DNA of 64,000 nucleotides. Origin: Medicago truncatula (taxonomy: Eukaryota > Streptophyta > Magnoliopsida > Fabales > Fabaceae). The stretch's first letter is position 1. Each line of letters starts with the position of its first letter. Below are positions 1,651-22,532 of the stretch, piece after piece. The stretch spans positions 9,372,001-9,436,000 of the forward strand of contig NC_053046.1 of NCBI RefSeq assembly GCF_003473485.1. The letters are read 5' to 3'. The notes under the pieces were generated by a model. That model had not been told where the DNA came from, did not search any database, and saw only the letters and a list, made by a program, of their open reading frames with translations. Both the position numbers and the translations under genes were made by a program.

Positions 1651-1939
1651 ATTTTCATATCATTACTTGTTACTGAATTTTAATATTGAATCAAACCCAT
1701 CTTATAAAACTAACAATGTCTTAACGCTACCTCCTTAAATGTTGCATGTTTAACTCTTTCATGTAGATAAAGTGTATACAAATATATGCAGAAAAAGAAT
1801 TTGAGGAATCTTTTTCTATGATATTTGTTGTCTTAGTTGTTACCAAAACTTCCTGGTCGAAAACTTGTTTAAGGCAAAGAGTGATGGGAAGTGACCTATA
1901 AGGAAATGAGGCGAGCATAGCAAAAATGCAAAACTTCCA

Positions 1940-1989
1940 AGTCCCACGTTGCTTAAAAGAGGAAAGAGATTAGCGTAAGGTTATATAAA
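1940..1989 (+). promoter_or_regulatory. Degenerate snRNA promoter (USE-like and TATA)
   Basis: AGTCCCACGTTG (1940-1951) is a weakened match to the plant upstream sequence element RTCCCACATCG. TATATAAA (1982-1989) follows after about 30 bases and lies 35 bases before the U4-like start at 2017. This is the same geometry as the two full U4 genes at 13058 and 19409. Confidence 0.6.
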
Positions 1990-2016
1990 AATAGAGCTTA
2001 GTCTATGAAAATAATC

Positions 2017-2074
2017 ATCTTTGCGCTTGGGGCAATGACGCAGCTAGTGAGGTATTAACTGAGGCGCGTCTATT
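2017..2074 (+). pseudogene. U4 snRNA pseudogene, 5' half only
   Basis: The first 58 bases match plant U4 snRNA: ATCTTTGCGCTTGGGGCAA, then the 5' stem-loop to GAGGCGCGTCTATT. Homology stops abruptly. The central and 3' parts, including the Sm site present in the copies at 13058 and 19409, are replaced by unrelated AT-rich sequence. It keeps the TATA position but has a degraded USE. It cannot make a normal U4 RNA. Its place, just before a decayed minus-strand DUF241 copy, mirrors the two full U4 genes and marks unit 1 of the tandem array. Confidence 0.8.
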
Positions 2075-2675
2075 ATAATAATTTGCTCATACAGAGTTGT
2101 GTTTTTGCATATATCAATATTAAATAGGCAAATTAATTCTTCAACCAAATATTTTTAAAAAAAAACATCTCCATTAATATTCATGCTTAGAATGGAAGAT
2201 ATCACAACATATTGAAACTGAGATGAACAAGGTCAAAAGATTGCAAGTTGGATCCATTTACTAACTTCGTTTATCTCAGTTAAAATCCTTGCTTTGCTTA
2301 GAATTTATTTCCCTAATGTGCCAGTCCCTAACTAACCTTCCCTCCCGGAACTGCATCCACCATATCTCACCATGGTTGTTACTGAATCCTGTAGCTTTTT
2401 AGTAACATGGGCTTTACCTAACAATTGCTCAAATGTTATTAAATTTAATTAGTAACATTTTTCTTGATTCAGTTACAATTTTCAATTGTTACTAAATCTC
2501 AATCATGTTGTAGTGCCACCACCACTTCCTAGTCATCCCCTAGCCAGGTTGATCGATAATGCAGGACAGCAACAATAATGCATCAGATGCAATTTCAAAT
2601 AGGCCTTTTATTGAAACCTAATAGTACCAGTCAAATAGTCCACTTGTCAATGTCCGCCTTTTATTGCGGTGTTGT

Positions 2676-2803
2676 TCTTAATATAGTTGCTAAAGATGAG
2701 GCGTCCAAGCCACTTCTAGTGTTGATCCTAATTCAATTTTAAGATCTTTGTAGCTCTTAATATAGTTGCTAAAGATGAGGCGTCCAAGCCACTTCTAGTG
2801 TTG
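2676..2803. repeat. Local direct duplication, about 49 bp
   Basis: Two near-identical copies of about 49 bases lie at 2676-2724 and 2755-2803, starting tcttaatatagttgctaaag and including 'gaggcgtccaagcc'. The second copy overlaps the 3' end of the decayed DUF241 copy. Confidence 0.8.
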
Positions 2804-3296
2804 CTCTTAACTCATTGAAATTCTCCAAGTTATTTTCACATATATGCATAAGTTTTTCAACCCTTAACCATTTGGTTGACTTCGACTTTGAAGCAGGTAA
2901 TGCTAAGAAAGATAAAAGGGATTGAAAGATAGACATGCTTGTAACAATAATTGCCCTAAGCACTCTAATCGAAGTATTGAGTTCAAAATCTTCATCCATA
3001 ACAGGGATACTTTAAATTCTCCATCCATCTCCTTCAATGATGTGATCAACTTCCTAGCATTCTTCTTCATCTTCATTGAGAATAAGTTATATTTAGCTAC
3101 ACTTTTTTTGTTGCTTCAATCCCATTTTCTCCTTCTAAGAGCAGAATAAAGTGCCTGAACATTTTCCCTTAATCAGTCGCATCACATAATGTCAAATTCT
3201 TGAGATTTTGTAACTTATCTTCTACTTTAATGTCGCTAGGATGAGAACCACATGACAAACTATTTAATTTGAGCGAATACGGTACTTATTTGCCAT
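2769..3296 (-). pseudogene. DUF241 pseudogene (unit 1, minus strand)
   Basis: Read on minus from a start-like ATG at 3294-3296, the sequence begins MANKYRIRSN and then hits a stop within the conserved SNSFPSQ block. Homology continues downstream in pieces: the 'CSALRRRK' region, the VAKYN/MKKNARKLITSLKEM region, and then a clean stretch ISIFQSLLSFLALPASKSKS..KWLRVEKLM..NLENFNEL. The block coding for residues about 35-110 of the intact genes is missing. The whole copy is about 530 bases against 855-873 for intact genes. It sits head-to-head with the intact gene at 4285, and inverted promoter-like sequence lies between them. Confidence 0.85.
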
Positions 3297-4284
3297 GGCT
3301 ACTTCTCTTTTTTGCAGATGGAAGCTCAAGCTCAATGTTTATAATTATGCATGTACTAATTGTTACCAAGTCCTTGACACCCTCTCCTTATATAATAGCA
3401 AGTGATTCATGTTTTATTCAAAAACTAATACTATAGCACATGCAGCAAACCTTTCTTAATCTATGTGAGCATGTGGTGGCTCCATGAGTTTTCCTTAGAA
3501 TTTGGTAAACTTGTCACATTTGTGCCAAACATTGTGCATTATTATACATGTCATATGCATGATGGTGATTAATGTAATGGAGTTGAGGTGTATAACACTG
3601 GCATGTCCTCCAAGTGTTACTAAACAGAAAACCTCATTAATCACTTTGTTTCTAATAAAAAAAAAAGGGTCATTTTTGCTTCAGATGTATCTATTGCTTG
3701 GCATGTTTCATATTTGAGGAGCTAGAACTGGGAAATGGTTTAAAGAATGGATTTTAGAAGGATGAGATCCAGATCTTGTGGGATATGATCAAAATATGGA
3801 CAACAATGTCAATTATATAGTATTACAATTTTTGTTTACTAGAACAAAATAATGTTAAATGGTTTAAATAATTTTTTATGACTAATGAGGTTTTCTGATT
3901 GCCAACATTAGGAAGACATGCCAGTTATATAGTGAATAATATTCATCATGCATCTTGAACCAATTTCAATATCAGAGCATCTTGCAGAGTATCACATGCA
4001 ATATCATTAACATATTCACAATGTTGGGTAGAGATATGACAACCTTACCATATTCAAATGGAAATTCATGCAGCCAGCACATGCTCTAAACCATGATTAA
4101 CAAGTGATACCTATTTTATCAATTTCCTTATTATATGAAATTAATAATCAGCAACCAATATCAATCATGAATGGCTCTTATATAAAGAGAGAGTCAGGCA
4201 CTTGGTAACACCACACAAACATTGAGCTTTACCATTTTCTTAGAACTAAAAAAGAAACAAACAACAAATTAAAGAGCAATTAAG
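3297..4284. promoter_or_regulatory. Divergent spacer between DUF241 pseudogene and gene
   Basis: On + there is TATATAAA at 4179-4186, about 100 bases before the ATG at 4285, with CCAAT at 4155-4159. The block at about 3885-4100 is shared with the upstream regions of the genes at 15498 and 21404. The left half of the spacer (about 3380-3650) is a degraded copy of the same promoter facing the other way. The two halves share a block resembling 'aaaacctcattagt' in opposite orientation, so the spacer is an inverted duplication. Confidence 0.6.
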
Positions 4285-5139
4285 ATGGCAAGCAAATACC
4301 ATGTTCGCTCAAATAGCTTTCCTTCTCAATCCCATCCAAGCTCCACAAGAATTGAACAAGATTTAAGAAAAATGAAGACATGGGAAGCTACATCAACATC
4401 CACATCTGATTCAATTACCACTGGCCTTTCCTTTCTTGAAGATTTGTATATTTCTTTGGATGATCTTCTACATATGTCATCAACACAAAAGGCCGTTTCT
4501 CACCATCAAGGTGAGAAATTTGTGGAAGAGTTGTTGGATGGTTCGGTGAAACTTTTAGATATATGTGGCATCACAAGAGACACCATGCTACAAATTAAAG
4601 AAAATGTTCAATCACTTCACTCTGCTCTTAGAAGGAGAAAGGGGGATTCAAGCATCGAAACTAGTGTAGCCGAATATAAATTCTTCACAAAGAAGATGAA
4701 GAAAAATGTCGCAAAGTTGATCACATCTTTAAAACAGATGGAAAGTAAATTTGGAGCTTCCTCACTTTTGAATAAAAATCAAGACCTTGTTGCAGTGATT
4801 ACAGTTCTTAGAGAGGTCATTGCAATGAACTTGTCTATCTTTCAATCCCTTTTTTCTTTCTTGGTTGGATCTTCATCAAAGTCAAAGGCAGCAAAATGGT
4901 TGAAAGTGACAAAGTTGATGCAAAAGAGGGTAACATGTGAAGAGAACATGGAGAGTATCAATGAATTCCAGTGTGTGGAAGCATCTTTAAGAACCCTTAT
5001 AAGTGAAGGTTCTAACGTTGCACATGAAAGATTTGAGGCTTTGGAGAATGCAATTGAAAGTATAGAAAAGGGTTTAGAGAATATATTTAGGTGTTTGGTT
5101 AAAACTAGAGTCTGTCTTTTGAACATCATGACTCATTAG
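4285..5139 (+). CDS. DUF241 domain protein (copy A)
   Basis: Single-exon gene of 284 residues, intact. DUF241 is a plant-specific family of unknown function, distantly related to BPS1/ROH1-type proteins. No enzyme motif is visible. The N-terminus carries the family signature VRSNSFPSQSHPS. Residues about 45-110 are helical and rich in leucine. A basic patch RRRKGDSS lies near residue 117. The middle (MKKNVAKLITSLKQME) and the C-terminal part look like amphipathic or coiled-coil helices, and the protein ends with the family motif IFRCLVKTRVCLLNIM. There is no signal peptide; a hydrophobic stretch (IFQSLFSFLVG) lies near residue 190. The start is the only ATG before the signature and is preceded by TATA and CCAAT boxes. 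The sequence is close to the copies at 15498 and 21404, showing recent tandem duplication. Confidence 0.93.
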   Translation: MASKYHVRSNSFPSQSHPSSTRIEQDLRKMKTWEATSTSTSDSITTGLSFLEDLYISLDDLLHMSSTQKAVSHHQGEKFVEELLDGSVKLLDICGITRDTMLQIKENVQSLHSALRRRKGDSSIETSVAEYKFFTKKMKKNVAKLITSLKQMESKFGASSLLNKNQDLVAVITVLREVIAMNLSIFQSLFSFLVGSSSKSKAAKWLKVTKLMQKRVTCEENMESINEFQCVEASLRTLISEGSNVAHERFEALENAIESIEKGLENIFRCLVKTRVCLLNIMTH

Positions 5140-6843
5140 TGTGCTGAGTTGTAAATTTCTTTCCAAATCTTCCAAAGAATCCAAATTTTAGGGAATTCTT
5201 GAGGATTGGAATTTTTTGCTTCATCAATCTGTATATATACAATTGAATAGTCATACAATCAAATAGAAACAACAAATTTTTGTCCTATATATTTCTGCTC
5301 TTTTATTTTTCCGCTAAGGTCTGAAATTGTGAATTATTGTATTCTTTGCCTAAAAACTATAGTTATTAATATTTGTTCTGTTAAACAAACAGAACTCATT
5401 AATAACAGGTTTAACTAAAACTTAAGCACTTTAGTAGTAGAATATAATGTAAATGGAGAGGTATCAAGCAGGTGATGATATTTAGGTGGCAGCAACTATC
5501 TTTGGGGCTTAATGAATCAATGCAAGGTGATAGTTTGATGAAACACAGGTGCAAAATATCACTAAAACCGTGTTGGACGAAGAATGCAGAAAAGATATGT
5601 TTCATTAATGATATTTCATCTTGGTTCTTTTTTATGTTTTGGAACCATGATAAATGAAAGGTAAAGGAAATTCAATAAGCTCATCAACGAAGCTGTTTTT
5701 ATATTGTTTTCAAAGCTGATACCTCAAATCAGAATAGCAAAAGCATCAAAATATAAAAATTATTGTTCTGTTTATACTGTCATATGAGCATGGTGGATGA
5801 CCGAACTATATAGAATCTTGTATGTAGCATACATGATCAAAAGTAATAAACTAATCAGATGTATCAATTAAAATTACTAAAGGTATCAGACATTTTTGTA
5901 TGGAAGCTAGTCTTTTTTTATTTCTTCTTTGAAATGAATCAGTCCAATGTCATCTTATCTAAGTACCATATAGGAAATTTTATAGTGAAAATAGCTTATA
6001 ATTGGAAAACTTAATAATCTAATGAGCAACATATCTCTCTTTGAATTTCATTACTTTTCTACTTGCAATATCCGCCATGCTTAATCACTCCTTGCTTATG
6101 CAGGCATCACTATTTTGCTATTGTACTAGCATTACCCTCTATTGTAACTATTAAAGAGATTTTGCATGAAAATATATAGAGATTAACTAGTTTACAATCT
6201 AAAAGACACGTCTCCTCTAAAATTATTAGCATCCTCAAGTAACCCTCAGATCATAATACAGGACAGAACATGCATTTAAACTAAAATCAAAGGCATCATC
6301 AACATTTCTCATATCATAATCTCAATAGTTATATAAAGCATTTCTTTTTCACATTCATTTCTCAATGAAGTTTTTCAGGTTCTTCAGACACACCAAGTAT
6401 TCCTTGTTGTCTTTGTTGAATATGCATTCCAGCAAAAAGTTGGCTGTGTTAGGGTTTTAGGTTTTGAAGGACTGTGATTGACTGCGGTCAAAATAATAAC
6501 ACAGTCAAATTAACTGCAGCCATTGGATCAAAGCAATGCTTCAGATTCACTTTCACTTATAAACCACAACAATTTCACTTTTTTAGTTGCACTTTACTCT
6601 TGCAATAAGCACTTTACATTGCACTTCTCAAAACTTATGTTTCAAAAATAGGTAATCAAACAAGTTTTTAATTTTTAAAATTTTAAAAACTAAAAAAGTG
6701 TTTCTCTCAAAAAAAGAAAAACTAAAAAAGTGTTTTTAAGAAATGTTTCAAACAGGCCCTTAATCTTCTAATAGAAGACAAAACACCCAAGAAAATGTTA
6801 ATGGACAATATAAGAAGTAGGAAAATGTTACTTCTCCCAAGAA
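5140..6843. other. Spacer without recognised gene
   Basis: The first 200 bases (5140-5340) are the DUF241 3' flank, also seen after 9558, 16370 and 22264. The remainder is AT-rich. I see no convincing coding region, RNA gene or bounded mobile element. Confidence 0.5.
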
Positions 6844-8950
6844 ATCATTTCCCAAGAACATCACGGACGTACAATAATAGATAGATATAATCACCTCCAT
6901 GAAGCTTCTGAATATAGACACAACTATCATTACTACTTCTAGAGAAACCTTGTTTTATCATAAAAGAATCAAATCGCTTGTACCACTGTCTAGGAGATTG
7001 TTTCAGCCCGTAAAGTGATTTTCTCAAGCGACATACCTGACTCTCTTTACCCTCAACCTTGTAACCCTCAGGTTGATACATATATATTTCCTCGTCTAAG
7101 TCTCCATGCAAGAAGGTTGTCTTCACATCTAGTTGTTCCAGCTCAAGATCACCATGAGCTACTAAACTTAATAGCACCCGGATAGAAGTATGTTTCACCA
7201 CCGGAGAAAATATCTCATTGTAATCAACTCCTTCCTTTTGTGCAAACCCTTTAGCCACTAGTCTAGCCTTATATCTTGTATTGCACGACTTAGTATGATC
7301 TTCTTTTCTTTTATACACCCATTTACAACCAATAGCAGACTTTCCTACAGGTAATGGGACTACCTCCCATGTCTTGTTCTTGTGAAGAGATTGCATCTCT
7401 TCCTCCATTGCAACCAACCAACTCTCTTTATCCTTGTCTTTGACAACTTGTTTGAAGGTGACCGGCTCATCATCTTCAACCGAGAGTGCATATTCCACCA
7501 AGTTTACCTGCCCATAATGCCTTAGAGGTTTGTCTGACCCCAACTTCTGAACTGTTTTATAATTTCTCTTTGGCCTAGTGGTATCCAAAGATTCCTGCAG
7601 CTGCTGTTGCAATACATGTGTATTTTCCTATTGAACCTCATTATCAAGTTCATCCTCCTCATCATCTTGAGTGACACTAGGATGTTCCACCTGAACATGA
7701 CTAGAATCTAGTTGGTCTTTAGATTCTATATCAACTATTTGATTTGATACTTTAACATCACCATAGTTAGGCACCATAGATTTCTCATCAAAGGTAACAT
7801 CCCTGCTAATCACAAATTTAGAATCTTCTAGACACCAAAGATAATAGCCTTTGACTCCTTTTGCATATCCTAAAAAGATAGTTTTCTTGGCTCTATTATC
7901 AAGTTTGTTATCCTTGACGTGATAATATGACGTGCATCCAAAAATTTCGAGTTTGTCATAGTCCGCATATTCACCTGACCACACCTTGTAGGGTGTGTCT
8001 CCACCTAAACTAGAATGTGGGGATCTGTTTACTACATAACCAGCTGTAGCAACCGACTCTGCCCACCATTCTCGACCTAACCCAGAATTAGAGCGCATAC
8101 ACCTTGCTTTCTCAAGAAGTGTACAGTTCAGTCTTTCCGTGACTCCATTCTGTTGTGGTGTGCCTCTTACCGTCCAGTGTCTAACAATGCCTTCCTGGTC
8201 ACAAAACCTCTTGAAAGCTCCATATGTATACTCTGTACCATTATCTGATCGCAGAGTTTTCAGCTTTCTACCCGTTATGTTCTCAACCATTGCTTTCCAA
8301 CACTTGAAAATATAAAATACCTCATTCTTATGCTTAAGAAAATAAATCCAAGCATACCTCGAATAATCATTAACATATGTAACAAAGTACCTGGAACCAC
8401 CCTTAGAAGTAACCGAAGCCGAACCCCAAACATCAGTATGCACGTAGTCTAACAATCCTCTGCTTTTGTGTTTGCTTGTAGAAAACTTCAAGCGATGTGC
8501 TTTTCCATACACACAATGTTCACAAAATTCCATGCATGGCTTTTTCATGTTCTTCAGCAAACCTTTCTCACCAAGTAATGATAGACCCTTTTCTGACATA
8601 TGCCCAAGGCGCATGTGCCATATCCTTGTCCATTTTGTTTGATCTTTACTTCCAATGATTCCAACTGCCAAGTCTCCTGTAACGGTTTTACCTATAAGAG
8701 GATAAAGATTTCTGTGTCGAACTCCCTTCATCACAACCAACGAACCACGTACAACTTTTAAAATTCCACCTTCCATAACTATTTTGCAACCATTTTCCTC
8801 TAGAACGCCAAGAGAAATAAGGTTTTTCCGCAAATTTGGAACATGTCTCACATTCATCAGAGTTCTTAACGCTCCATCATGCATCTTGATTTGTATTGTA
8901 CCATACCCCATAATAATATGAACTATGCACTCACTAAAGTTGAACATGAA
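6844..8950 (-). mobile_element. Ty1/copia pol fossil (integrase and partial reverse transcriptase)
   Basis: Fossil. On minus, the order is a pre-integrase domain (from about 8947), the integrase core (about 8500-7900, with recognisable YVHTDVWG and LRSDNGTEY segments), a linker, and the N-terminal part of a Ty1/copia reverse transcriptase (about 7450-6850, with SLYGLKQSPRQWYKRFD). The order integrase before reverse transcriptase identifies Ty1/copia. The gag/protease part, the RT end, RNase H and both LTRs are not seen. The piece is about 2.1 kb, broken in more than one place, and not capable of movement. Its right edge lies just before the truncated DUF241 copy at 9028. Confidence 0.9.
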
Positions 8951-9027
8951 TGTAGCTAGAACAATAAATTTGTATGAAAAATGTCTAAGAAGAAAGATGA
9001 ACTTCTAATTAATAAATTCACTTTGTA

Positions 9028-9558
9028 ACAAATTAAAGAAAATGTTCAAACACTTCACTCTTCTCTTAGAAGGAGAAAAGGAGATTCAAGCATTGAAAAA
9101 AGTGTAGCAGAATATAAATTCTTCACAAAGATGAAGAAGAATGTCACAAAGTTGATCACATCTTTAAAACATATGGAAACTAAATTTGGAGCTTCCTCAC
9201 TTTTGAATCAAGATCAAGAAATTGTTGCAGTGATTACAGTTCTTAGAGAGATCATTGCAATAAACATGTCTATCTTTCAATCCATTTTGTCTTTCTTGGT
9301 TGGATCATCATCAAAGTCACAAAGTTGATGCAAAAGAGGGTAGTATGTGAAGAGATCGTGGAGAATTTCAATGAATTGAAGGGTGTGGTCGTGGAAGCAT
9401 CTTTAAGAAATCTTTTAAGTGAAGGTTCTAATGTTGCACAAAAAAGATTTGAGGCTTTGGAGAAAGCAATTGAAAAGCTAGAAAATGGTTTGGAGAATGT
9501 ATTTAGCCATTTAATTAAAACTAGAGTTTGTCTTTTGAACATCATGACTCTATCTTAG
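9028..9558 (+). pseudogene. DUF241 pseudogene, 5'-truncated
   Basis: Homology to copies A-C starts abruptly at IKENVQTLHSSLRRRKGDSS (about residue 103 of the intact protein) and runs to the normal C-terminus LIKTRVCLLNIMTLS and stop at 9556-9558. The first third and the promoter are absent. The break lies about 80 bases from the end of the copia fossil. Within the remaining part there is a one-codon loss in the MKKN region and a 25-base deletion at about 9320, removing KATKWLKV and shifting the frame. It therefore reads as two pieces, 9028-9328 and 9325-9558. Confidence 0.9.
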
Positions 9559-9930
9559 AAATTTGATGAGGATTGAAAAATTTTGCACAGTCGATCCGTA
9601 TATAAATATTATGTACAATTCAATAGCAATACAAGAAAATAGAAAAAAACAAATTTGTTCTATATATATGATCTTTTTATTTATAATTTGAAGTGACAAC
9701 TGTTAGAACACTAGCAAGTTATAGACTTAAAGTGGAAAGTTGGAAAGAATAGACACCTTTCGTAAGAGCTAGTGTTGGTATGACTTAAAAATGTGCCACA
9801 TTGGAGAGACATACTACCTAGTAAGTATTTATATAAGTGGAGGGTGATCCAAGGGTGTGCCCTTGTGGTATCCACTTTTGCAAACGGATGAACGCTTAGA
9901 AAATATATACATTTCACACGTGCGATGCCG

Positions 9931-10010
9931 TTGGGTCGGGCGGGGCTTGGGTATAAAAGAAATATATTTTTTGGGTCGGACGGGGCTTAGGTATAAAAGA
10001 AATATATTTT
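9931..10010. repeat. Two 40-bp direct repeats
   Basis: A 40-base unit beginning ttgggtcgg and containing gtataaaagaaatatattt occurs at 9931-9970 and 9971-10010 with very few differences. It is GC-rich at its left end against an AT-rich background. Function unknown. Confidence 0.8.
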
Positions 10011-10493
10011 TTTGTCACTTGAAAATGTTAAATTAATTTTTGTTAATTTAATTATTAAACCGGACATGCTAGTTCCAACATGAGTGACTTAAGGAGTGAA
10101 GAAAATATTATGGTGTTTGGGGTTCGAACCCCGGACTAAGCTAAGCTCACGAGGATAAACATCCTTAATTAATGTAATAACAACATTAATCCTTATTATA
10201 TTATGCTATTTTATTTTTGTCAATATTAATAAATATAGATATGGTAGCAAAGTCAAACATACAATTTATATCTTAGAGAAGCAACAATATGATCTGTGCA
10301 TCAAGGAAATGATGAATGCTCTTTATTAAGAATTATGATTTTACACAAATACAAGAAACTTGTGGTGGTTTTATAATTTAATAAGTAGGATCTTTCAACA
10401 AATCAATATGAAGATAATATCTTAAAAACTGTTAATTTGGAGAAAAGTGTGGAGATAAATCATATATTTCTAGGCAGTCACCGCCATGTAAAG

Positions 10494-12979: not shown

Positions 12980-13030
12980 AGTCCCACATCGCCCATATGA
13001 GAAACCAGGTGTGATTGAAGTCTATATAAA
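12980..13030 (+). promoter_or_regulatory. snRNA promoter of U4 copy 2 (USE and TATA)
   Basis: AGTCCCACATCG (12980-12991) matches the plant snRNA upstream sequence element exactly. TATATAAA lies at 13023-13030. About 31 bases separate the two, the longer spacing typical of Pol II-transcribed plant snRNA genes (U1, U2, U4, U5) rather than Pol III U6. The RNA start is 35 bases after the first TATA base. Confidence 0.9.
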
Positions 13031-13057
13031 AACATGTGAAGTTGAGCATTAGAAACC

Positions 13058-13211
13058 ATCTTTGCGCTTGGGGCAATGATGCAGCTAATGAGGTACTAAC
13101 CGAGGCGCGTCTATTGCTGGTTGAAAACTATTTCCAAACCCACTCTTAGGCTTAGGGTAACTTAAGCCTTTGAGAATTTCTGGAAGGACTCCTTTTGGGG
13201 TAAAGTCCTAC
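13058..13211 (+). ncRNA. U4: U4 spliceosomal snRNA (copy 2)
   Basis: U4 pairs with U6 in the U4/U6.U5 tri-snRNP and is released when the spliceosome is activated. The gene starts ATCTTTGCGCTTGGGGCAA (stem II with U6). It continues with the 5' stem-loop (GCTAATGAGGTACTAACCGAGGCG) that binds the 15.5K/Snu13 protein and PRP31, then TGCTGGTTGAAAACTATTTCC, and has a good Sm site AATTTCTGG near 13177. Length is about 154 bases, normal for plant U4. Immediately after the RNA is CAATTTCAGTTCAA (13211-13224), a match to the plant snRNA 3' box CA(N)3-10AGTNNAA. With USE and TATA in place, all parts needed for expression are present. It is followed by a decayed DUF241 copy on the other strand. Confidence 0.93.
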
Positions 13212-13224
13212 AATTTCAGTTCAA
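13211..13224 (+). terminator. snRNA 3' box of U4 copy 2
   Basis: CAATTTCAGTTCAA fits the plant snRNA 3'-end signal CA(N)3-10AGTNNAA. It stands at the expected position, at the 3' end of the RNA. Confidence 0.75.
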
Positions 13225-14279
13225 TGTTAGTCTGGAAAGTAAAAGTATTTAACCTTTTATTCTTGTGCTGAATCCTAAACTATTGTAGTACTAATTTTTT
13301 GCAAAAGATATATCTTCAAACCAGCATTACATTGCAACTTAGAAATATAACAGTAAACTACCTGTCAATCTGTCATGGCAAATCAATTAACTCCTAAAAC
13401 CAATGTTCCTCTTTGTATGCGCCTATTTAACTGTAAACTTAATGTTGAAGGTTTGCATATGAATGGATGTGTACTACATAATATGAAATGCATTCCATCA
13501 TCTTTAACATTTTCAGTTGGAATTGTACAGGAAGATTGAAGTACCAAACAATGTCTTAAAGCTACCAACATAGATGTTGCAATTTCAAAGTTTAAAGTTT
13601 AGCTGTTGCAAGTTACAAGTGCTTTTTGATTCCATGTTGTCATTGCTTTTGTTGCTTCAGGACTATGAATCCATTATGAAGATCTAAAACTAAAAAAGGG
13701 TAGATAATTTTCTCTTTTTTTATAATTTTATAATATTTGATTGTCTTTGTTAGTTATCGCCAAGAAATATAGGAAGTAACTCCTTATACATTTTTTTTTT
13801 AGAAAAACTCCTTGTACATGTAAAGAGACAAATAATTGGATTTTGTAGCTTTTTGTTCAGTCCGAAGAATACTATTGGCGAATAAGGAATATTGGACATT
13901 TGTTTAAGGCAAAGAGTGATGAATGGTGACTTAGAAATAAACTATTCACATCGTCCATTCCATTTCAAGATCAAAAACTATATCTAGTTACTCGCTTCCA
14001 CATGCATGCAAACCTCTTTGATTACTCAGGAATCCAGCAAACTAATTAAGGTGTCATGTTGATGTATGTATGCCGATGGCGGTACAAGTTCAATTGTTCG
14101 GATGAAAGCTTCCACTTGTTGCGTGGCTCGATGAAAACACGTAAGTATCTCTCGAAGAGGCCTGATGTGGATGATACTAACACTTGACAGAAGATTGTTG
14201 GAGCAACAAGTTCATGAAATTTTACCAGTTCTCAAAAGGGTGCTTAAATATGATTTCACCAGTTCTCAAAAGGGTGCTT

Positions 14280-14590
14280 AAATATGATTTCACATTCAGA
14301 AACTTATTGAAATTCTCCAAGTTCTCTTCACATGAAGTTATCCTCTTATGCATTAATTTTGCCATCCATAACCATTTGGTTGAATTTTACTCTGAAGCGG
14401 ATAATGTCGAGAAGGATAAAAAGGACTGGAAGATGCTTGAAACAATAATTTCCCTAAGCACTGTTATCAATGAAGTAAGCTCATGATCTTCATTTCAAAA
14501 TGGATTTATTCCAAACTCTCCTTCCATCTTCTTCAATGTTGTGATCTACTTCCTACAATTCTTCTTCATCTTCTTTGACACTCTCAATAT
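14280..14590 (-). pseudogene. DUF241 remnant (unit 2, minus strand)
   Basis: On minus, short blocks match the DUF241 C-terminal half (MKKN..KKM near 14560, CEENLE-type and NFNKFL-type blocks near 14310-14350), with frame breaks and large gaps. It is more decayed than the copy at 2769 but has the same order and orientation relative to U4 and the intact + gene. A 34-base direct duplication (about 14225-14292, ccagttctcaaaagggtgct..) borders it. Confidence 0.7.
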
Positions 14591-15059
14591 ATAGCAGCAA
14601 GCAACTCATGCTTCATTCGACAAAAATAATGCAGCACACGAGTTTCCCATAGAACTTGGTAAACTTGTCACGTTTATGCCAAACATTATGCATTATTATA
14701 CATGCCATAATGGTAATGAAATGGATTTGAGGTGTATATGACTTGCCATGTCCTCCGAGTGTTGGTAAACAGAAAACCTCTAGTCACTTTTTTCCAATAT
14801 ATATGAAGAAGAAAACAAAGTGTTGTTTTCAATTCAGAGGTATCTATTTGCTGGCATGTTCCATTCTTGAGAAGCTACAACTGCTATATGATTTAAAGAA
14901 TGGATTTCAGAAGGATGAGATCCAGATCTTGTTGGATATACATGACCAAAAACAGACAGCAATATCAATTATATGTATTTTTTATTTTATTATTACAACT
15001 GAAAGCTTGTAGCATGCAGCTCCTTCATACTGCACACATCTCTGAACCAAATGTGGCAC

Positions 15060-15497
15060 CAATTTTATAATTGAAATGATGAATGTATGTGGCAGCAAAG
15101 GAGGCAAGCTAATTGGTGACTAATGAGGTTTTCTAATTGCCAACACTCGGAGGACATGCCAGCTATATTCATCGTGCACCTCAAACTCATTTTAATATCA
15201 TTGCAGATTAACACATGCTATATCATTCAAATATTCACAATGTTGGGAAAACATCTAACAAGCTTACCATATTCAAAGGGGAATCATGCAGGCACCACAT
15301 GCTCTACACCATCACCGACAAGTGCTTCATATTTTATTAATTTCATTATCATATGAATTTAATAATTCTCAACCAATCAATATGATGAATACCTCTTATA
15401 TAAATAGAGAGTCAAGAACTTGGTAACATCACACAAACTTAGAGCTTTATAATTATCTTAGAAGAAAAAAAGAACAAACTATAATTTAAAGAGAAAT
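15060..15497 (+). promoter_or_regulatory. Promoter region of DUF241 copy B
   Basis: TATATAAA at 15397-15404 and CCAAT at about 15372-15376. The upstream sequence from about 15115 ('actaatgaggttttct..') onwards is shared with the regions before 4285 and 21404 and, inverted, with 133-560. The 5' leader downstream of TATA is also conserved. Confidence 0.7.
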
Positions 15498-16370
15498 ATG
15501 GCAAGCAACAATTACCATGTTCGCTCAAACAGTTTTCCTTCTCAATCTCATCCTAATACCTCAAGATTAGAACAAGAGCTAACCAAAATTAAGACATGGG
15601 AAGCCACATCAACATCGACATCTGATTCAATTACCAATGGCCTTTCATTTCTTGAAGATTTGTATATTTCTTTGGAAAATCTTCTCAATATGTCATCAAC
15701 ACAAAAGGCCATTGCTCACCGTCAAGGTGAGAAATTTGTTGAAGAGTTGTTGGATGGTTCAGTGAAAATTTTGGATATCTGCGGCATCACAAGGGACACC
15801 GTGTCACAAATTAAAGAAAATGTTCAAACACTTCACTCTGCTCTTAGAAGGAGAAAGGCAGATTCAAGCATTGAAAAAAGTGTAGCCGAATATAAATTCT
15901 TCACAAAGAAGATGAAGAAGAATGTCACAAAGTTGATCACATCTTTAAAACATATGGAAAGTAAATTTGGAGCTTCCTCGCTTTTGAATCAAGATCAAGA
16001 CCTTGTTGCAGTGATTACAGTTATTAGAGAGGTCATTGCAATGAACATGTCTATCTTTCAATCCCTTCTGTCTTTCTTGGTTGGTTCTGCATCAAAATCA
16101 AAGGCAACCAAATGGTTTAAAGTGGCAAAATTGATGCACAAAACGACAATCTCATGTGAAGAGAAGTTGGAGAATTTCAATGAATTGCAGTCAGTTGATG
16201 CATCTTTGAGAACCCTTTCAAGAGAAGGTTCAATTGTTTCAAAGGATGCACGTGAAAGATTTGAGGCTTTGGAGAATGCAATTGAAATGATTGAAAATGG
16301 TTTAGAGAATATATTTAGGTGTTTGGTTAAAACTAGAGTTTGTCTTTTGAACATTGTGACTCTATCTTAG
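15498..16370 (+). CDS. DUF241 domain protein (copy B)
   Basis: Intact single-exon gene of 290 residues, with unknown function. It starts MASNNYHVRSNSFPSQSHPN and is co-linear with copies A (4285) and C (21404) through TWEATSTSTSDS, EKFVEELLDGSVK, GITRDT, the basic patch RRRKADSSIEKS, FTKKMKKNVTKLITSLKHME and the C-terminal motif IFRCLVKTRVCLLNI. It is longer than A by small insertions, mainly near the C-terminus (VSKDAR before ERFEAL). There is no signal peptide; helical, coiled-coil-like segments predominate. Relative to the other copies, the KAVSH/KLVSH position reads KAIAH and the C-terminal linker is more divergent. TATA, CCAAT and leader are preserved, so it is likely expressed. Confidence 0.93.
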   Translation: MASNNYHVRSNSFPSQSHPNTSRLEQELTKIKTWEATSTSTSDSITNGLSFLEDLYISLENLLNMSSTQKAIAHRQGEKFVEELLDGSVKILDICGITRDTVSQIKENVQTLHSALRRRKADSSIEKSVAEYKFFTKKMKKNVTKLITSLKHMESKFGASSLLNQDQDLVAVITVIREVIAMNMSIFQSLLSFLVGSASKSKATKWFKVAKLMHKTTISCEEKLENFNELQSVDASLRTLSREGSIVSKDARERFEALENAIEMIENGLENIFRCLVKTRVCLLNIVTLS

Positions 16371-16566
16371 AGATCTGCTCAGGATCGAAAAATTTTGCAC
16401 AGTTAATTTGTATATAAATACTATGTATACAATTCAATAGAAATACAATCAAATAGAAACAACAAATTTGGCTCTATATTTCAGCTCTTCTATTTTTAAT
16501 TTGAAGTTATTACAATTTTTCTCTAAGGTCTGAAGTTATAAATTATTGTATTATTTGCCTAAAAAC

Positions 16567-16920
16567 TGTTAAGAGTCATACATCGGATAGGAGATGGCGT
16601 GACAATGTGTTTATAAGTGGAGGCAATCCTCACCTCACAAGCCGGTTTTGTGGGGTTGTGTTAGGCCCAACCATAATTTCTAAGGTGGTATCAGAGCCTC
16701 TTCAAGATCCATTGGGCCACCTGCTATCAGGTTTCCGCTATTGGACCACCCACCATGTATGTCCACGAACCAAACCCAATAGTGCTGGTCGTGAGGGGGT
16801 GTCTTAAGAGTCCCACATCGGATAGGAGATGGCATGACAATGTGTTTATAAGTGGGGGCAATTCTCACTTCACAAGCCGATTATGTGGGGTTGTGTTAGG
16901 CCCAACCACAATTTCTAAGA
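16567..16920 (+). mobile_element. TRIM (terminal-repeat retrotransposon in miniature)
   Basis: Fossil of the TRIM class. Two direct LTRs of about 119 bases (16567-16685 and 16802-16920) flank an internal part of about 116 bases. Right after the left LTR is a primer-binding site TGGTATCAGAGC (16686-16697), complementary to initiator tRNA-Met. A purine-rich stretch precedes the right LTR. A 5-base target duplication AAAAC lies at 16562-16566 and 16921-16925. There is no coding capacity, as normal for TRIMs. The LTRs are about 90% alike, so it is not very recent. Structurally it looks whole. Confidence 0.88.
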
Positions 16921-16999
16921 AAAACTACAATAACTGATGTGCTCAAGCACTTGTAGAAAATACTGTAATTACAGGAAAAAAATCATATAAAAAAATGTT

Positions 17000-17699
17000 G
17001 CAAGCTCAAACAAAAAAATTGGTTCCACCAACATAAAATCAAAGATGATGTAGCCAACAAATGAATTCTAACACCAAGACATAATGAGTAACTTAAATCA
17101 CGGAAGGTTGGGACAAGTGATGAGTATTGAGTTCGGTTTTTACTCAATGGAAAAAGAAAGAAGAAAAACAGTATTAATGGCTCAAACGTGTCTATAAATC
17201 TACATCAGCAGCAGAAATTTCCTAAACCAGTCGACTATAGTTCTGCAACCTTTTAAAGCTTCTCATCCAAGACACATTAGATCCAAACAGTACAAATTTG
17301 ATTATTGACCAGCCCCCACTAATACACTTGAACTTGATTACATCGTGCGCATGATCTATTTTGTTTTGGTTTTTTTTTACTGGTGTGTGTGTTCCATAGG
17401 GGGCACTGCTGAAATGTAGCAGTTTGCCAGTTCTTCCTTGTCTTGTGTAATGATCTATTTTTTGATGCAAAATGACTTGGACTGTATGCAAATGCCAGAC
17501 ACTATTTGGTTGCATATCCAAGCTGCAATGCCTGTAATTTTCGCATCTATGCGGTCCTCTTTCTCCTGCAGCCTCCACCTGTACCAATTCATCTATTTCA
17601 AGCCAGCAGTACAATTGCTGGCTTTAACTCCTGTTGTTCAGCTACCCTTTGTAGGAATCCGGCTCTATCAAGGGTTGCAGATAATAATGCATCGGGGAA
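17000..17699. other. Spacer, no recognised gene
   Basis: Short open stretches exist on both strands, but none gives a recognisable protein. The part next to 17700 may belong to the duplicated fragment described there. Confidence 0.4.
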
Positions 17700-17874
17700 G
17701 TCAATACAACAGGAAAATGAATTGAAAATTGATCCTTGAACGCTTTTAGAAGATAACGCTGGATCTTTCCCTTCTCCAAGTAATGCTGCTAGCAAGGAGA
17801 TGGTGACCATGATAACTTTCGAGCTGCGAGATGGCTTAAAGGGGGCTGTAAGGGTGAGAGGGACAGACATCACA
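17700..17874 (+). pseudogene. Unrecognised duplicated gene fragment, copy 1
   Basis: About 170 bases match 22930-23108 at roughly 80%. The shared reading (..ENEL..DP..TLLED..S.PS.SNAAS..) is broken in both copies, and the copies differ by small insertions. I do not recognise the parent gene. The end 'gctgtaagggtgaga' reads KGAVRVR in both. The copies stand just before the U1 gene and just after DUF241 copy C. Confidence 0.5.
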
Positions 17875-17885
17875 CATATTATCTA

Positions 17886-17938
17886 AGTCCCACATCGGAA
17901 GTTTTATAGTGAATGTTATGGAGCATGAGTTATAAAAG
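17886..17938 (+). promoter_or_regulatory. snRNA promoter of U1 (USE and TATA)
   Basis: AGTCCCACATCG at 17886-17897 is a perfect USE core. TATAAAAG at 17931-17938 follows after 33 bases. The RNA start at 17962 lies 31 bases after the TATA start. The spacing is of the Pol II type. Confidence 0.88.
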
Positions 17939-17961
17939 AGAATTGTGTGATTCATTGCAAC

Positions 17962-18123
17962 ATACTTACCTGGATGGGGTCAATGGGTGATCAAAAAGGC
18001 CCATGGCCTAGGCAAGTGACCTTCATTGCACTTTGAAGGGGTGCTAGCCTAAGGTCTACCCAAGTGGTGGAGCCTACATCATAATATGTTGTGGTTGGGG
18101 CTTGCGTTCGCGCGGCCCCTCCC
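17962..18123 (+). ncRNA. U1: U1 spliceosomal snRNA (possible variant)
   Basis: U1 recognises 5' splice sites. The 5' end ATACTTACCTG, which pairs with the intron start, is intact. Stem-loop I (U1-70K site) follows with a loop GATCAAAAAGG in place of the usual GATCANGAAGG. The remainder (CCTTCATTGCACTTTGAAGG, GCCTAAGGTCTACCC, then the GC-rich last stem CTTGCGTTCGCGCGGCCCC) follows plant U1 order. Length about 162 bases is normal. The Sm region reads AATATGTTGTGG rather than AATTTGTGG, so snRNP assembly may be weak. The 3' box CAATTTTAGTTTAA (18123-18136) and the promoter are good. It could be a functional variant or a young pseudogene. Confidence 0.88.
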
Positions 18124-18136
18124 AATTTTAGTTTAA
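18123..18136 (+). terminator. snRNA 3' box of U1
   Basis: CAATTTTAGTTTAA matches CA(N)3-10AGTNNAA directly at the RNA end. Confidence 0.7.
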
Positions 18137-18385
18137 ATATTTACAATTATATCTTACACTCTTGTGCAACCTGTGATGGATGTACTATGGGGGAAGGTAC
18201 TGGTTTTCTGAGGATCATAACTTAATGAAAGTACTGATTATTAATTACTCTTTGTTTTGTGTTCTTTGATAATGTGTTTTTTTTTAATTACTTGCTTAAC
18301 TCATTGTTCATATTCACCCTTCTAGTTTGATTTTGTTACTTGTAATTTATGTGTGAATTGTGCATTTTGTAGGAGTAGTAATACA

Positions 18386-18800
18386 ATGGTCAAACTCAAA
18401 CATAAGAAACTTGAAGCATTTTATAACAGAAAACTTCCTGAGGAAGATGCAAATTGTATAGCTTCAACATCAAATCTCGAAAAGAACCCTTCCGGTGATC
18501 AAACAGTTCAACCGGACGAGCAACCTTGCAAGATTCAAAGAGTCATTGTGGAGAACTTTGATGTCAATTGTTTAGAACGTGACCCCGGGAAGTGCCTCCA
18601 AATTTGGGAATATCCGGTGAATCAAAGAGATGTAGCTGAAAAATATCCTCTCAATGGGTAGCTGAAAAATATCCTCTCAATGAAGATAAGCATTCAAGAC
18701 GATTTCAAGCATCTTGGTTCAAAATGTTCCCTTCATGGCTAGAGTACTCTCCAACAAATGATGCTGCTTATTGTTTGTTTTGTTACTTGTCTGGTGCGAT
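18386..18800 (+). pseudogene. hAT transposase fragment (TTF-type zinc finger N-terminus)
   Basis: Starts MVKLKHKKLEAFYNRKLPEE and carries the family block DPGKCLQIWEYPVNQRDVAEKYPLN, then SRRFQASWFKMFPSWLEYSPTNDAAYCLFCYL, typical of the TTF-type zinc finger of hAT transposases and ZMYM1-like plant proteins. A 26-base tandem duplication (18632-18657 and 18658-18683, from gtagctgaaaaatatcc) shifts the frame between the two blocks. Everything after CLFCYL, including the DDE and dimerisation regions, is missing. It is a dead piece of a DNA transposon. Confidence 0.8.
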
Positions 18801-19154
18801 TGTTTTTCTATTATGCATGTGGCAAGCATCTGAGTAGGCTGGTTTTAATCCTCCAAGTTTAGGATAGGTTATCTCTCTAGTTGGTATATAGTATATTTGG
18901 AGCTTTAGTCTCGTGTTTGAGCTATTGCGGTGATATTTTTTGGATGAAATTGTTATAACTTCCCCCCAATATTTTCGGCAAGATCCGCCACTGCATGTGT
19001 GATGTTAAGTATCAATCATATAATCGAAATGTGCAGTTGTAATCATCTTTCTTCCGTCTTCTCCTTTAATAAAGCAATTGTTGATGATTGAGAGTGTTGA
19101 AATCTGCAGGCTGATTTGGTTGGGAAAATATCCAACGGAAACTACATACCAATC

Positions 19155-19320
19155 TCTATAGACCAACATATTACCAATATTTAGAAGAAAGTATGAATCT
19201 TGAAGAGAATGTAATCGGAAGAAAGCGTGGACGGTTTATAAAAGAAATTCATATTGAAAGAATGTATGCTTACAACTGCAACTTGATGTATACTGCAGAA
19301 GATCCAAATGCATTCCAAGT
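19155..19320. repeat. Shared left part of units 2 and 3
   Basis: About 165 bases starting at 'accaacatattaccaat' match 12487-12640, placing the left boundary of the U4/DUF241 unit in both copies. In unit 3 about 320 bases present in unit 2 (about 12640-12965) are missing, and the match resumes directly at the USE. Confidence 0.7.
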
Positions 19321-19331
19321 CTTGCGTATTT

Positions 19332-19381
19332 AGTCCCACATCGCCCTATGAGAAACAAGGTGTGGTTGAAATCTATATTAA
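19332..19381 (+). promoter_or_regulatory. snRNA promoter of U4 copy 3 (USE and TATA)
   Basis: AGTCCCACATCG at 19332-19343 and a TATA box TATATTAA at 19374-19381, one base off copy 2. The spacing is 30 bases between the elements and 35 bases from TATA to the RNA start. Confidence 0.88.
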
Positions 19382-19408
19382 AACATGTGAAGTTGAACAG
19401 TAGAAACC

Positions 19409-19561
19409 ATCTTTGCGCTTGGGGCAATGACGCAGCTAATGAGGTACTAACCGAGGCGCGTCTATTGCTGGTTGAAAACTATTTCCAAACCCCCTCTAGG
19501 CTTAGGGTAGCTTAAGCCTTTGAGAATTTTTGGAAGGACTCCCTTTGGGGTAAAATCCTAC
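19409..19561 (+). ncRNA. U4: U4 spliceosomal snRNA (copy 3)
   Basis: Full-length plant U4, about 153 bases. It has the 5' end ATCTTTGCGCTTGGGGCAATG, the 5' stem-loop with the K-turn sequence (TAATGAGG..CCGAGGCG), TGCTGGTTGAAAACTATTTCC and an Sm site AATTTTTGG. It differs from copy 2 at a handful of positions; the tract CAAACCCCCTCTAGG is closer to canonical U4 than in copy 2. The 3' box CAATTTCAGTTCAAG starts at 19561. Promoter, RNA and 3' signal are all present, so it is probably functional. It is the left member of unit 3 and is followed by a DUF241 remnant on the other strand. Confidence 0.93.
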
Positions 19562-20389
19562 AATTTCAGTTCAAGTTTAGTCAGGAAAGTAAAATTCTTT
19601 AACCTTTTATTCTTGTGCTGAATCCTAATCTTTTGCAATTTGCGAAAATTGTACTAATCTTTTGCATAAGATATATCTTCAAACTAGTATTACAAAATAT
19701 CTGTCATTGCAAATCAATTAATGTTGAATGTTTGCATATGAATTGATGTGTGCTACAGAATATGAAATGCATTCCTTCATCTTTTAACGTTTTCACCTGG
19801 AATTGTGCAGGATATGATTGAAGTACCAAACAATGTCTTAAAGCTACCAACATAGATGCTACAATTCCTAAGTTTAAAGTTTAGCTGTACAAGTTACAAG
19901 TGCTTTTTGATTCCATATTGTCATTGCTTTGGTTGCTTCAGGACTTGGAATCCATTATGTAGATCTAAAAGTAAAAAAGGGTAGAGAATTCTCTTTTTTT
20001 ATAATATTTACTTTTCTTTGTTATTTATTGCCAAGAAATATAGGAAGTTAGAAACTTTTGGCTTTCATAAGAATATTATATCTTGTTACTCGCTTCCACA
20101 TGCATGCAACCCTCTTTGATTACTCAGGAATCCAGCAAACTAATTAAGGTGTCATGTTGATGTATGTATGCCAATGACGGTACAAGTTCAATTGTTCGAA
20201 CAAAAGCTTCCAGTAGGAGAGAGAGCTTCTTTGGTCTTAGAATGGCTCGATGAAAACACTTAAGTATCTCTCGAAGAGGCCCGATGTGGACGAGACTAAC
20301 ACTTGACAGAAGATTGTTGGAGCGCCAAGTTCATGAAATTTTACCAGTTCTCTTTACAAACATGAGTACTTAAAAGGGTGCTTAAATAT

Positions 20390-20600
20390 GCTTTCACATT
20401 CAGAAACTTGTTGAAATTCTCCAAGTTCTCTTCACATGAAGTTATCCTCTTATGAATTAGTTTTGCCATCCTTAACCATTTGGTTGACTTTGACTCTGAA
20501 GCAGACTAAGCACTGTTATCAATGAAGTGAGCTCATGATCTTCATTTCAAAATGGATCAACTTCCTGCAATTCTTTTTCATCTTCTTTGTCTCTCTATAT
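20390..20600 (-). pseudogene. DUF241 remnant (unit 3, minus strand)
   Basis: About 200 bases match the minus-strand remnant of unit 2 (14290-14580), with further internal loss. Minus-strand blocks such as KVNQMVKDGK and the NFNKFLNV-type segment can be seen, but no open frame remains. It is the most decayed of the three inverted DUF241 copies. Confidence 0.65.
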
Positions 20601-20999
20601 ATAATAGAAAGCAATTCATGCTTCATTCAACAAAATAATGTAGCACGTGAGTTTTCCTTAGAACTTGGTAAATTTGTCATTTTTATGCCAAACATTGTAC
20701 ATTAGTCACTTTTTTCTAATGCTAAAATAAAGGTGTTGTTTTCGATCCAGAGGTATCTATTGGCTGGCATGTTCCATTGTTGCGGAGCTACAACTGCTAC
20801 ATGGTTTTAAAGAATGGATTTCAGAAGGATGAGATCCAGATCTTGTGGGATATATATGATCAAACACAGACAACAATATCAATTATATATAATTTTTATG
20901 TTATTATTACAATTGAAATCATGTAGCATGCAGCTCCTTCATATAGAACACATCTCTGAGTAATATGCAGCACCAATAATAATAATTGAAATGATGAGG

Positions 21000-21403
21000 G
21001 TAATGTGGCAGCAGAGTATGCACAAACTTATTGATGACTAATGATGTTTTCTGATTGCCAACACAAAGAAGACATGCCAGCTATATTCATCATGCATCTC
21101 AAACTCATTTTAATATTCATGGCATCTTGCAGAATAACACATGCAGTATCATTAATAAATTCACAATGTTGGACTAACATGTAACAAGCTTACCATATTC
21201 AAAGGAAAATTCATGTAGGCACCACATGCTCTACTCCATCATTAACAACTGCCCTCTATTTTATTCATTTCCTTTCTATATGAACTTGATAATTATCAAC
21301 CAATATCATGATTAGCTCTTATATAAAGAGAGAGTCTAGCACTTGGTAATATCAAACAAACATCGAGCTTTACAAAATAACAAACAACAGATTAAAGAGA
21401 AAT
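21000..21403 (+). promoter_or_regulatory. Promoter region of DUF241 copy C
   Basis: TATATAAA at 21320-21327, 77 bases before the ATG, and CCAAT at about 21300. From about 21037 ('gactaatgatgttttctgatt') the sequence follows the upstream regions of copies A and B. The 5' leader is shorter than in A and B. Confidence 0.7.
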
Positions 21404-22264
21404 ATGGCAAGCAACAAGTACCATGTTCGCTCAAACAGTTTTCCTTCTCAATCTCATCCTAACTCCACAAGAATAGAACAAGAGCTAACCAAAATCAAGA
21501 CATGGGAAGCCACATCAACATCCACATCTGATTCAATTACCAATGGCCTCTTCTTGCTTGAAGATTTGTATATATCTTTGGAAGATCTTCTAAATATGAC
21601 ATCAACACAGAAGCTTGTTTCTCACCATCAAGGTGAGAAATTTGTGGAAGAGTTGTTGGATGGTTCAGTGAAAGTTTTGGATATCTGTGGCATCACAAGG
21701 GACACCATGTTACAAATTAAAGAAAATGTTCAATCACTTCACTCTTCTCTTAGAAGGAGAAAGGGAGATTCAAGCATTGAAACAAGTGTAGCCGAATATA
21801 AATTCTTCACAAAGAAGATGAAGAAGAATGTCACAAAGTTGATCACATCTTTAAAACATATGGAAACTAAATTTGGAGTTTCTTCACTTTTGAATCAAGA
21901 TCAAGACCTTGTCGCAGTTATTACAGTTCTTAGAGAGGTCATTAAAATGAACTTGTCTATCTTTCAATCCATTTTCTCTTTCTTGGTTGGATCTTCATCA
22001 AAGTCAAAGGCAACCAAATGGTTGAAAGTGACAAAGTTGATGCATAAGAGGGTATCCTCTGAAGAGAACTCAGACAATTTCAATGAATTGGAATGTGTTG
22101 AAGCATCTTTAAGAACCCTTTCAAGTGAAGGTTCTAATGTTGCACATGAAAGATTTGAGGCTTTGGAGAATGCAATTGAAAGTATAGAAAATGGTTTAGA
22201 GAATATATTTAGGTGTTTGGTTAAAACTAGAGTCTGTCTTTTGAATATCATGACTCTATCTTAG
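21404..22264 (+). CDS. DUF241 domain protein (copy C)
   Basis: Intact single-exon gene of 286 residues, with unknown function. N-terminus MASNKYHVRSNSFPSQSHPN. It carries the same blocks as copies A and B: TWEATSTSTSDS, EKFVEELLDGSVKVLDICGITRDTML, SLRRRKGDSSIETSVAEYKFFTKKMKKN, IFQSIFSFLVGSSSKSKATKWLKVTKLM and the C-terminal IFRCLVKTRVCLLNIMTLS. It shares details with copy A (RRRKGDSSIETS, SNVAHERFEALENAIESIE), suggesting that A and C are closest or have exchanged sequence. No signal peptide or enzyme motif. The 3' flank is the same conserved tail as in the other copies. Confidence 0.93.
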   Translation: MASNKYHVRSNSFPSQSHPNSTRIEQELTKIKTWEATSTSTSDSITNGLFLLEDLYISLEDLLNMTSTQKLVSHHQGEKFVEELLDGSVKVLDICGITRDTMLQIKENVQSLHSSLRRRKGDSSIETSVAEYKFFTKKMKKNVTKLITSLKHMETKFGVSSLLNQDQDLVAVITVLREVIKMNLSIFQSIFSFLVGSSSKSKATKWLKVTKLMHKRVSSEENSDNFNELECVEASLRTLSSEGSNVAHERFEALENAIESIENGLENIFRCLVKTRVCLLNIMTLS

Positions 22265-22532
22265 GGATTTGATGAGGCTTGAAAAATTTTGTACAGTTAA
22301 TTTGTATATAAATACTGTATACAATTCAATAGAAACAACAAATTTTTGCTCTATATTTCTGCTCTTTTACTAAATTCTTTGCCTAAAAACTCCAATTGCT
22401 AATTTGTTGGTAAACAAACAGAATCATCAATAAAAGTTGTAACTAAAACTTAATTACTAGATGTGCTCAACACTGGTGGCAGAAAATACTAAAACTAAAA
22501 CTAACCGGTGGCAACTAGGCTACCCATGAAAG

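Follow-up and report, generated by a model that had tools for sequence, protein, structure and literature searches.

In a 64,000-nucleotide (nt) stretch of Medicago truncatula DNA (contig NC_053046.1, here C5, positions 9372001-9436000; hereafter the window), genes for the spliceosomal U4 small nuclear RNA (snRNA) lie among genes and decayed copies of the protein family DUF241 (Pfam PF03087, now named BPS1). One order, U4 on the plus strand, then a decayed DUF241 copy on the minus strand and an intact DUF241 gene on the plus strand, is present three times in the window; this had been claimed in an original prediction from the sequence alone, and it was confirmed by Rfam, Pfam and tblastn searches. 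U4 was searched with the Rfam covariance model RF00015 (gathering score 46 bits) and DUF241 with its Pfam profile (curated cut-off 23.5 bits). Plant snRNA genes transcribed by RNA polymerase II carry an upstream sequence element (USE), RTCCCACATCG, at about -70 and a TATA box at about -30, and these are included in the following description of the three units, which uses window positions.

Unit 1
1942..1952, plus: USE-like element GTCCCACGTTG with two mismatches, followed by a TATA-like box at -35
2017-2156, plus: Rfam match to U4, 50.2 bits
2017..2074, plus: U4 proper, a 5' stump of about 58 nt that lacks the Sm site and the rest of the 3' part
2802..3296, minus: decayed DUF241, with the C-terminal half at 2802-3172 carrying a stop and frame shifts, an ATG and N-terminal piece reaching to about 3296, and a large internal deletion
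4285..5139, plus: intact DUF241 (PF03087), 284 amino acids (aa)
Unit 2
12981..12991, plus: perfect U4 USE, GTCCCACATCG, with a TATA box at -35
13058..13207, plus: full-length U4, 109.3 bits
14225..14578, minus: decayed DUF241, with its 5' half deleted and the upstream region fused to codon ~136
15498..16370, plus: intact DUF241, 290 aa
Unit 3
17887..17897, plus: perfect USE of a U1 snRNA gene, with a TATA box
17962..18122, plus: full-length U1 snRNA gene, 140 bits (Rfam)
19333..19343, plus: perfect U4 USE, with the TATA-like TATATTAAA
19409..19557, plus: full-length U4 (Rfam match 19409-19550, 115.1 bits)
20368..20590, minus: decayed DUF241, the most reduced of the three, with its best piece at 20368-20487 and smaller pieces to about 20590
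21404..22264, plus: intact DUF241, 286 aa

The intact genes predicted at 4285, 15498 and 21404 gave matches to the whole PF03087 domain, and the decayed copies predicted at 2769, 14280 and 20390 lie close to the reverse-strand pieces listed. Rfam matches on the plus strand were likewise obtained for all three predicted U4 copies (2017, 13058 and 19409), but the copy at 2017 is no more than the stump. Units 2 and 3, predicted to share sequence from about 12487/19155, do so from 12482/19156 (89% identity) through 16492/22369, in pieces. The prediction had missed the complete U1 at 17962-18122, a DUF241 gene at 1-138 (minus), a DUF241 fragment at 9008-9555 and five units outside the window.

These five units of the same order adjoin the left of the window and were found upon searching the 430-Mb assembly (42 contigs); all comparisons outside the window cover the rest of the M. 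truncatula genome only.

Unit 4: DUF241 (minus) at C5:9351546, U4 at 9353136, pseudogene pieces at 9354065-9367699, DUF241 (plus) at 9368903
Unit 5: DUF241 (minus) at C5:9324748, U4 at 9326953, pseudogene at 9327510, DUF241 (plus) at 9329879, continued at 9348970
Unit 6, opposite strand: U4 at C5:9310800, pseudogene at 9309579, DUF241 at 9307788
Unit 7, opposite strand: pseudogene at C5:9314249, DUF241 at 9312308, without U4
Unit 8, opposite strand: pseudogene at C5:9318673, DUF241 at 9316915, without U4

The array thus comprises eight recognisable units over ~86 kb (C5:9307788-9394261), on both strands, with U4 present in six and in a homologous context in several. Within the window, chance falls far short of explaining homology of such length and order (expectation value, E, down to 0), and the collinear homologous blocks and common lesions found across units are those of a local segmental-duplication array. 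A divergent DUF241 gene stands upstream of U4 in units 1, 4 and 5; units 2, 3, 6, 7 and 8 lie head-to-tail behind another DUF241 copy. As the units occur in both orientations, unequal crossing over alone, which had been proposed in the original prediction, is insufficient to account for them. The DUF241 (plus) gene of unit 5 is interrupted by an 18.8-kb long terminal repeat (LTR)-type element (C5:9330184-9348970), a recent insertion whose ends are 99.9% identical over 3.54 kb, with GACAC on either side, and the unit 4 pseudogene is interrupted by an 11.9-kb stretch (C5:9355642-9367504) whose ends share 99.1% identity across ~1.28 kb. Unit 3 is bracketed by a direct repeat of 82% identity, at 17708-17880 (plus, just before U1) and 22931-23113 (plus, after DUF241).

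The U4 copies differ greatly in their state of preservation. The Sm site and the conserved columns are complete in units 2 and 3 and not in unit 1, whose U4 scores above the RF00015 cut-off yet is a stump: 62 bases (2013-2074) align to the U4 of units 2 and 3, the sequence beyond is unlike U4, and we rejected this copy as a gene because it ends after ~58 nt without an Sm site. As a measure of integrity, we counted changes at 116 columns that are invariant in nine U4 genes outside the array, which gave two changes for unit 2, three for unit 6 and five for unit 4. For unit 3, five of six apparent changes come from a match that ends early, as the 3' end of its U4 lies ~7 nt past the Rfam match end at 19550 (TAAAATC), and the continued sequence holds one further change. 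Over the eight units, U4 is complete in three (2, 3 and 6, two of them in the window), altered in one, cut short in two (1 and 5) and gone from two, as no U4 remnant was detected in units 7 and 8 by an unfiltered profile search (E up to 5) or a second search (E up to 1). The USE, located at -76/-75 in units 2/3, has no mismatch in units 2, 3 and 6, one in units 4 and 5, and two in unit 1. Judging from these features, the complete U4 genes of the array may be active. In the Arabidopsis snRNA survey (PMC545797), the USE is printed as RTCCACATCG. Two further pieces of snRNA-like sequence lie in the window: a perfect USE at 16810-16820 (plus), with no snRNA match behind it, beside a 116-bp direct repeat (16569-16684/16804-16919), and a weak 35-base match to the 5' part of U4 at 23849-23883 (plus; E 0.009-0.018), which may be all that remains of a lost unit.

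The DUF241 genes, in turn, are well preserved. The array region holds 13 full open frames and three partial copies of DUF241, and the three unit genes of the window score 270.9-280.2 bits against PF03087, over profile positions 1-238 of 238. Their scores against PF05633 (DUF793, BYPASS1 proper), at 18.7-20.5 bits, lie below its cut-off of 21.5; in a bean paper (PMC5793164), BPS1 is tied to PF05633, and BPS3 is said to have DUF241. For 11 intact genes (the 13 less two diverged edge genes), the ratio of nonsynonymous to synonymous substitution rates (dN/dS) was 0.25-0.57 in 54 of the 55 pairs, the remaining pair having a dS of 0. By these codon ratios, the DUF241 genes are under purifying selection. 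The unit gene is open in seven of the eight units, the exception being that of unit 5, interrupted by the LTR element with its nearly identical ends. Three DUF241 copies in the window stand outside the threefold order:

1..138, minus, cut by the left edge of the window: 5' end of an intact DUF241 gene, the divergent neighbour upstream of the unit 1 U4 (C5:9371272-9372138 by tblastn and open frame; PF03087 at C5:9371284-9371991)
9008..9555, plus: DUF241 fragment that starts at codon ~97 and covers the 3' part of the gene, beside copia-like remnants
32701..33618, minus: diverged intact DUF241 gene (Pfam) at the right edge of the array, with no U4 match beside it

The copia-like retroelement remnants (integrase and GAG-pre-integrase; 6845-8947, minus) lie between units 1 and 2 and adjoin the fragment.

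The decayed DUF241 copies carry lesions, judged by eye on alignments, that link the units to one another. A 5' deletion that joins upstream sequence to about codon 136 is common to units 2, 3, 6, 7 and 8, and an additional internal deletion to units 6, 7 and 8, while units 1, 4 and 5 have kept the start and an N-terminal piece and miss an internal part. Since such old lesions are common to several pseudogenes, decay would have started before amplification ended.

A second snRNA gene, U1, probably belonged to the package as well. The complete U1 of unit 3 lies upstream of U4 on the same strand, 1287 nt apart, and is 95% identical over 261 bp to a U1 at C5:9231381. Unit 5 holds an 84-nt 5' part of U1 (C5:9326468-9326551; E 5e-16; no match at E up to 1 in a reversed-sequence control), which begins about 485 nt before U4. 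Judged against the U1-U4-U1 arrangement at C5:12.604-12.608 Mb, unit 6 retains the sequence of both U1 sides and misses the U1 itself; tblastn over 10 kb of that locus gave no DUF241 match. In unit 7, a portion of the spacer between U1 and U4 survives. No more than two of the eight units still give a U1 match, which is complete in one (unit 3), and three of the at least 27 U4 matches listed for the genome have a U1 match within 2 kb. Because a complete U1 in unit 3, a U1 fragment in unit 5 and U1 flanks in unit 6 are all present, the inherited package was, on this sequence evidence, probably a U1-U4 pair together with the pseudogene and the DUF241 gene.

Trees of the noncoding parts group the units consistently (support given as bootstrap/SH-aLRT). 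The pseudogene tree yielded the clades {2,3} (100/100), {6,7,8} (97/96) and {1,4,5} (91/88); the tree of the 900 bp 5' of DUF241 yielded {2,3} (100/100), {1,4,5} (100/100) and {6,7,8} (91/93); and a tree of the array U4 copies only yielded {1,4,5} (99/98) and {2,3} (100/99), with unit 6 apart. The same unit clades in these three trees support co-descent of the parts. The original prediction, that U4 and DUF241 were amplified as one package, fits this concordance and the common order in eight units; it has to be amended in that the package probably included U1 and in that two units are without U4.

Elsewhere in the genome, U4 and DUF241 matches lie apart among the matches listed. At least 27 U4 matches were listed, 25 of them above the cut-off, with six of the at least 27 in the array. 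Among these, the outside U4 nearest to a DUF241 copy is at C5:9232351; it has a U1 as its partner and lies 65 kb from the left edge gene of the array. The second-smallest distance, on C8, is about 226 kb. Clusters of the same family at C3:58.09, C4:34.70 and C8:33.92-33.98 Mb, with several open copies close together, resemble the C5 array but have no U4 match nearby among those listed. By contrast, three U4 copies at C4:48.692-48.705 Mb were co-amplified with protein-gene sequence in a locally duplicated block (within C4:48691001-48706200), as in the C5 array, although the companion at the third copy, the sole copy scanned, is not DUF241 but an Exo_endo_phos2 (inositol 5-phosphatase-like) gene in pieces. 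U4 has thus been carried along by a neighbouring gene at least twice in the M. truncatula genome, which makes the C5 case less singular. As far as the cited part of the Arabidopsis survey goes (PMC545797), Arabidopsis has seven U1-U4 clusters, with U1 upstream at 180-300 nt. Unit 3 and the unit 5 remnant share the upstream position of U1, and USE and TATA promoters are likewise common to both species, as are several duplicated U1-U4 pairs plus pseudogenes. Unlike Arabidopsis, unit 3 has a gap of 1287 nt between U1 and U4, a U1 match is left in just a quarter of the Medicago units, and no co-amplified protein gene is mentioned in that part of the survey. The present arrangement did not come up in literature searches on DUF241 (Medicago, tandem) or on snRNA genes (Medicago, tandem U4).

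Taken together, we consider it probable that the array arose by local segmental duplication, in which U1-U4 pairs were passengers of a maintained DUF241 gene, and was then reshaped by LTR insertion and gene conversion. From the above observations, we infer the duplication mechanism, the order of events and the gene conversion as follows. A block with a plant-typical U1-U4 pair, a reversed, decaying DUF241 copy and an intact DUF241 gene would have been copied several times, in both orientations, to give the eight units. Selection would maintain DUF241, while the snRNA genes would ride along with their own promoters; given their own USE and TATA box, each new U4 was possibly a working extra copy for a time and then often decayed. 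LTR insertions and gene conversion would afterwards have altered the units, so that the coding sequences and some U4 copies departed from the unit history. That U4 is a passenger appears to be the simplest reading, since DUF241 is kept under constraint while U4 decays (absent or truncated in four of the eight units).

Several observations weigh against this reading. The DUF241 coding tree is discordant: it pairs unit 2 with unit 6 (93/97) and places unit 3 beside the genes at C5:9321130 and 9324748 (93/99). In approximately unbiased (AU) tests, holding the coding clade {2,3} together gave p 0.014 (13 rows) and 0.079 (7 unit genes), and holding {6,7,8} together gave p 0.027 (13 rows) and 0.005 (7 rows). 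The only coding clade that agrees with the unit history is {1,4}, recovered in both sets (80/74 and 100/99); a single clade {2,3,6,7,8} was not rejected (p 0.278). Upon rooting with outside U4 genes, the U4 clade {2,3,6} was rejected (p 0.00012; 0.0056 without the 12.6-Mb copy), so the U4 copies of units 2/3 fail to join that of unit 6 despite their common pseudogene deletion. Furthermore, the sequence that follows U4 in units 2/3 can be aligned to other units near the pseudogene only, the remnant resembling a U1 promoter behind unit 1 (5947-5989) gave just a weak match (E 0.0012), and the evidence for a passenger role consists of decay and promoters. Strict descent as one block thus fails for two of the four parts. 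Discordant U4 and DUF241 trees had been named in the original prediction as what would speak against a joint origin, and such discord is found in the coding tree and the rooted U4 tree, though not in the pseudogene, 5'-flank or array-only U4 trees. As pseudogene and flanks agree, we suggest that the discord reflects later exchange between copies (gene conversion, U4 exchange) rather than separate origins. Exchange of this kind is plainly suggested by the two divergent DUF241 genes upstream of U4 in units 1 and 4, which are almost unchanged in their coding part (dS 0) and carry 12-17 changes per 100 columns further upstream.

A single inheritance of U4 is the point at which the strongest competing explanation departs, namely that U4 entered the array more than once, with units 1, 4, 5 and 6 carrying an older lineage and the ancestor of units 2/3 having received a second U1-U4 cassette, either by replacement of its earlier U4 or by insertion. 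This is a real possibility, to which we give somewhat less than even weight. The U4 and promoter of units 2/3 are 82-87% identical to outside U4 genes (C5:37.17, C5:9.232 and C7:7.03 Mb) and just 71-73% identical to those of units 4 and 6. The C5:9.232-Mb copy also has up to ~340 bp of sequence in front of U4 in common with unit 2, and the rejection of the {2,3,6} clade fits as well. A clade of all six array U4 copies was also rejected when the 12.6-Mb copy was kept outside it (AU p 7e-5), but not when this nested copy was admitted (p 0.079), its row dropped (0.17) or complete copies only were used (0.12). The likelihood drop came mostly from the C5:12.6-Mb U4, which groups with unit 6, and we therefore rejected the statement that two independent U4 origins are proven. 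Moreover, what is left of U1 in units 3 and 5, together with its flanks in unit 6, speaks for a common unit that already possessed a U1-U4 pair, and export of U4 from units 2/3 predicts an identical tree. The tree behind the identity comparison comprised the at least 27 listed matches less six, and those behind the AU tests the same less ten weak or broken copies; of units 1 and 5, just the U4 part was used, and there were variants lacking the 12.6-Mb row or units 1 and 5.

Selection for extra U4 snRNA could instead have driven the amplification, with DUF241 as the passenger. Units 2, 3 and 6, with a complete U4 and a perfect USE, are what this predicts; however, U4 has been cut short, altered or lost in five of the eight units, whereas the DUF241 frame is open in seven, and there are DUF241 clusters on C3, C4 and C8 with no listed U4 match, which makes such a driver improbable. 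A regulatory function, in which U1/U4 units beside inverted pseudogenes give rise to antisense or small RNAs and so tune the output of a dosage-sensitive DUF241 array, would mean that spliceosomal RNA promoters were recruited to regulate a protein gene family, but we regard it as highly improbable, because, although the order and relative strands fit (transcripts continuing past U4 across the pseudogene would be antisense to DUF241 mRNA and could damp the array dose) and the longest exact matches between pseudogene and gene reach 22 nt (pseudogenes 1 and 6) and 21 nt (pseudogene 5), the window pseudogenes are only ~69-76% identical to the intact genes, pseudogenes 2, 3, 7 and 8 match a gene exactly over no more than 20, 14, 17 and 13 nt, U4 is lacking or cut short in half of the units, and a 3'-box-like sequence after U4 in units 2 and 3 should stop transcription. 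Small interfering RNA or hairpins formed from pseudogene and gene were likewise rejected as the main explanation, with exact matches of at most 20 nt in four of the seven pseudogenes compared (that of unit 4 lying outside the set).

Local duplication with U1-U4 passengers would make the array a case of ordinary genome evolution, richly recorded. It clearly documents how spliceosomal RNA genes of plants can multiply and die through the amplification of an adjoining gene family, with U1 and U4 lost piecemeal and with exchange between copies. It also calls for caution with copy counts scored by Rfam (here at least 27 U4 matches listed), as these take in stumps and passengers.

Beyond the array, the window contains a piece of a C-5 cytosine DNA methyltransferase (PF00145; 39662-40075, minus), a smaller MULE-type fragment (24134-24529, minus) and a gene derived from a FAR1/MULE transposase, whose open frame is long (60397-62682, plus).

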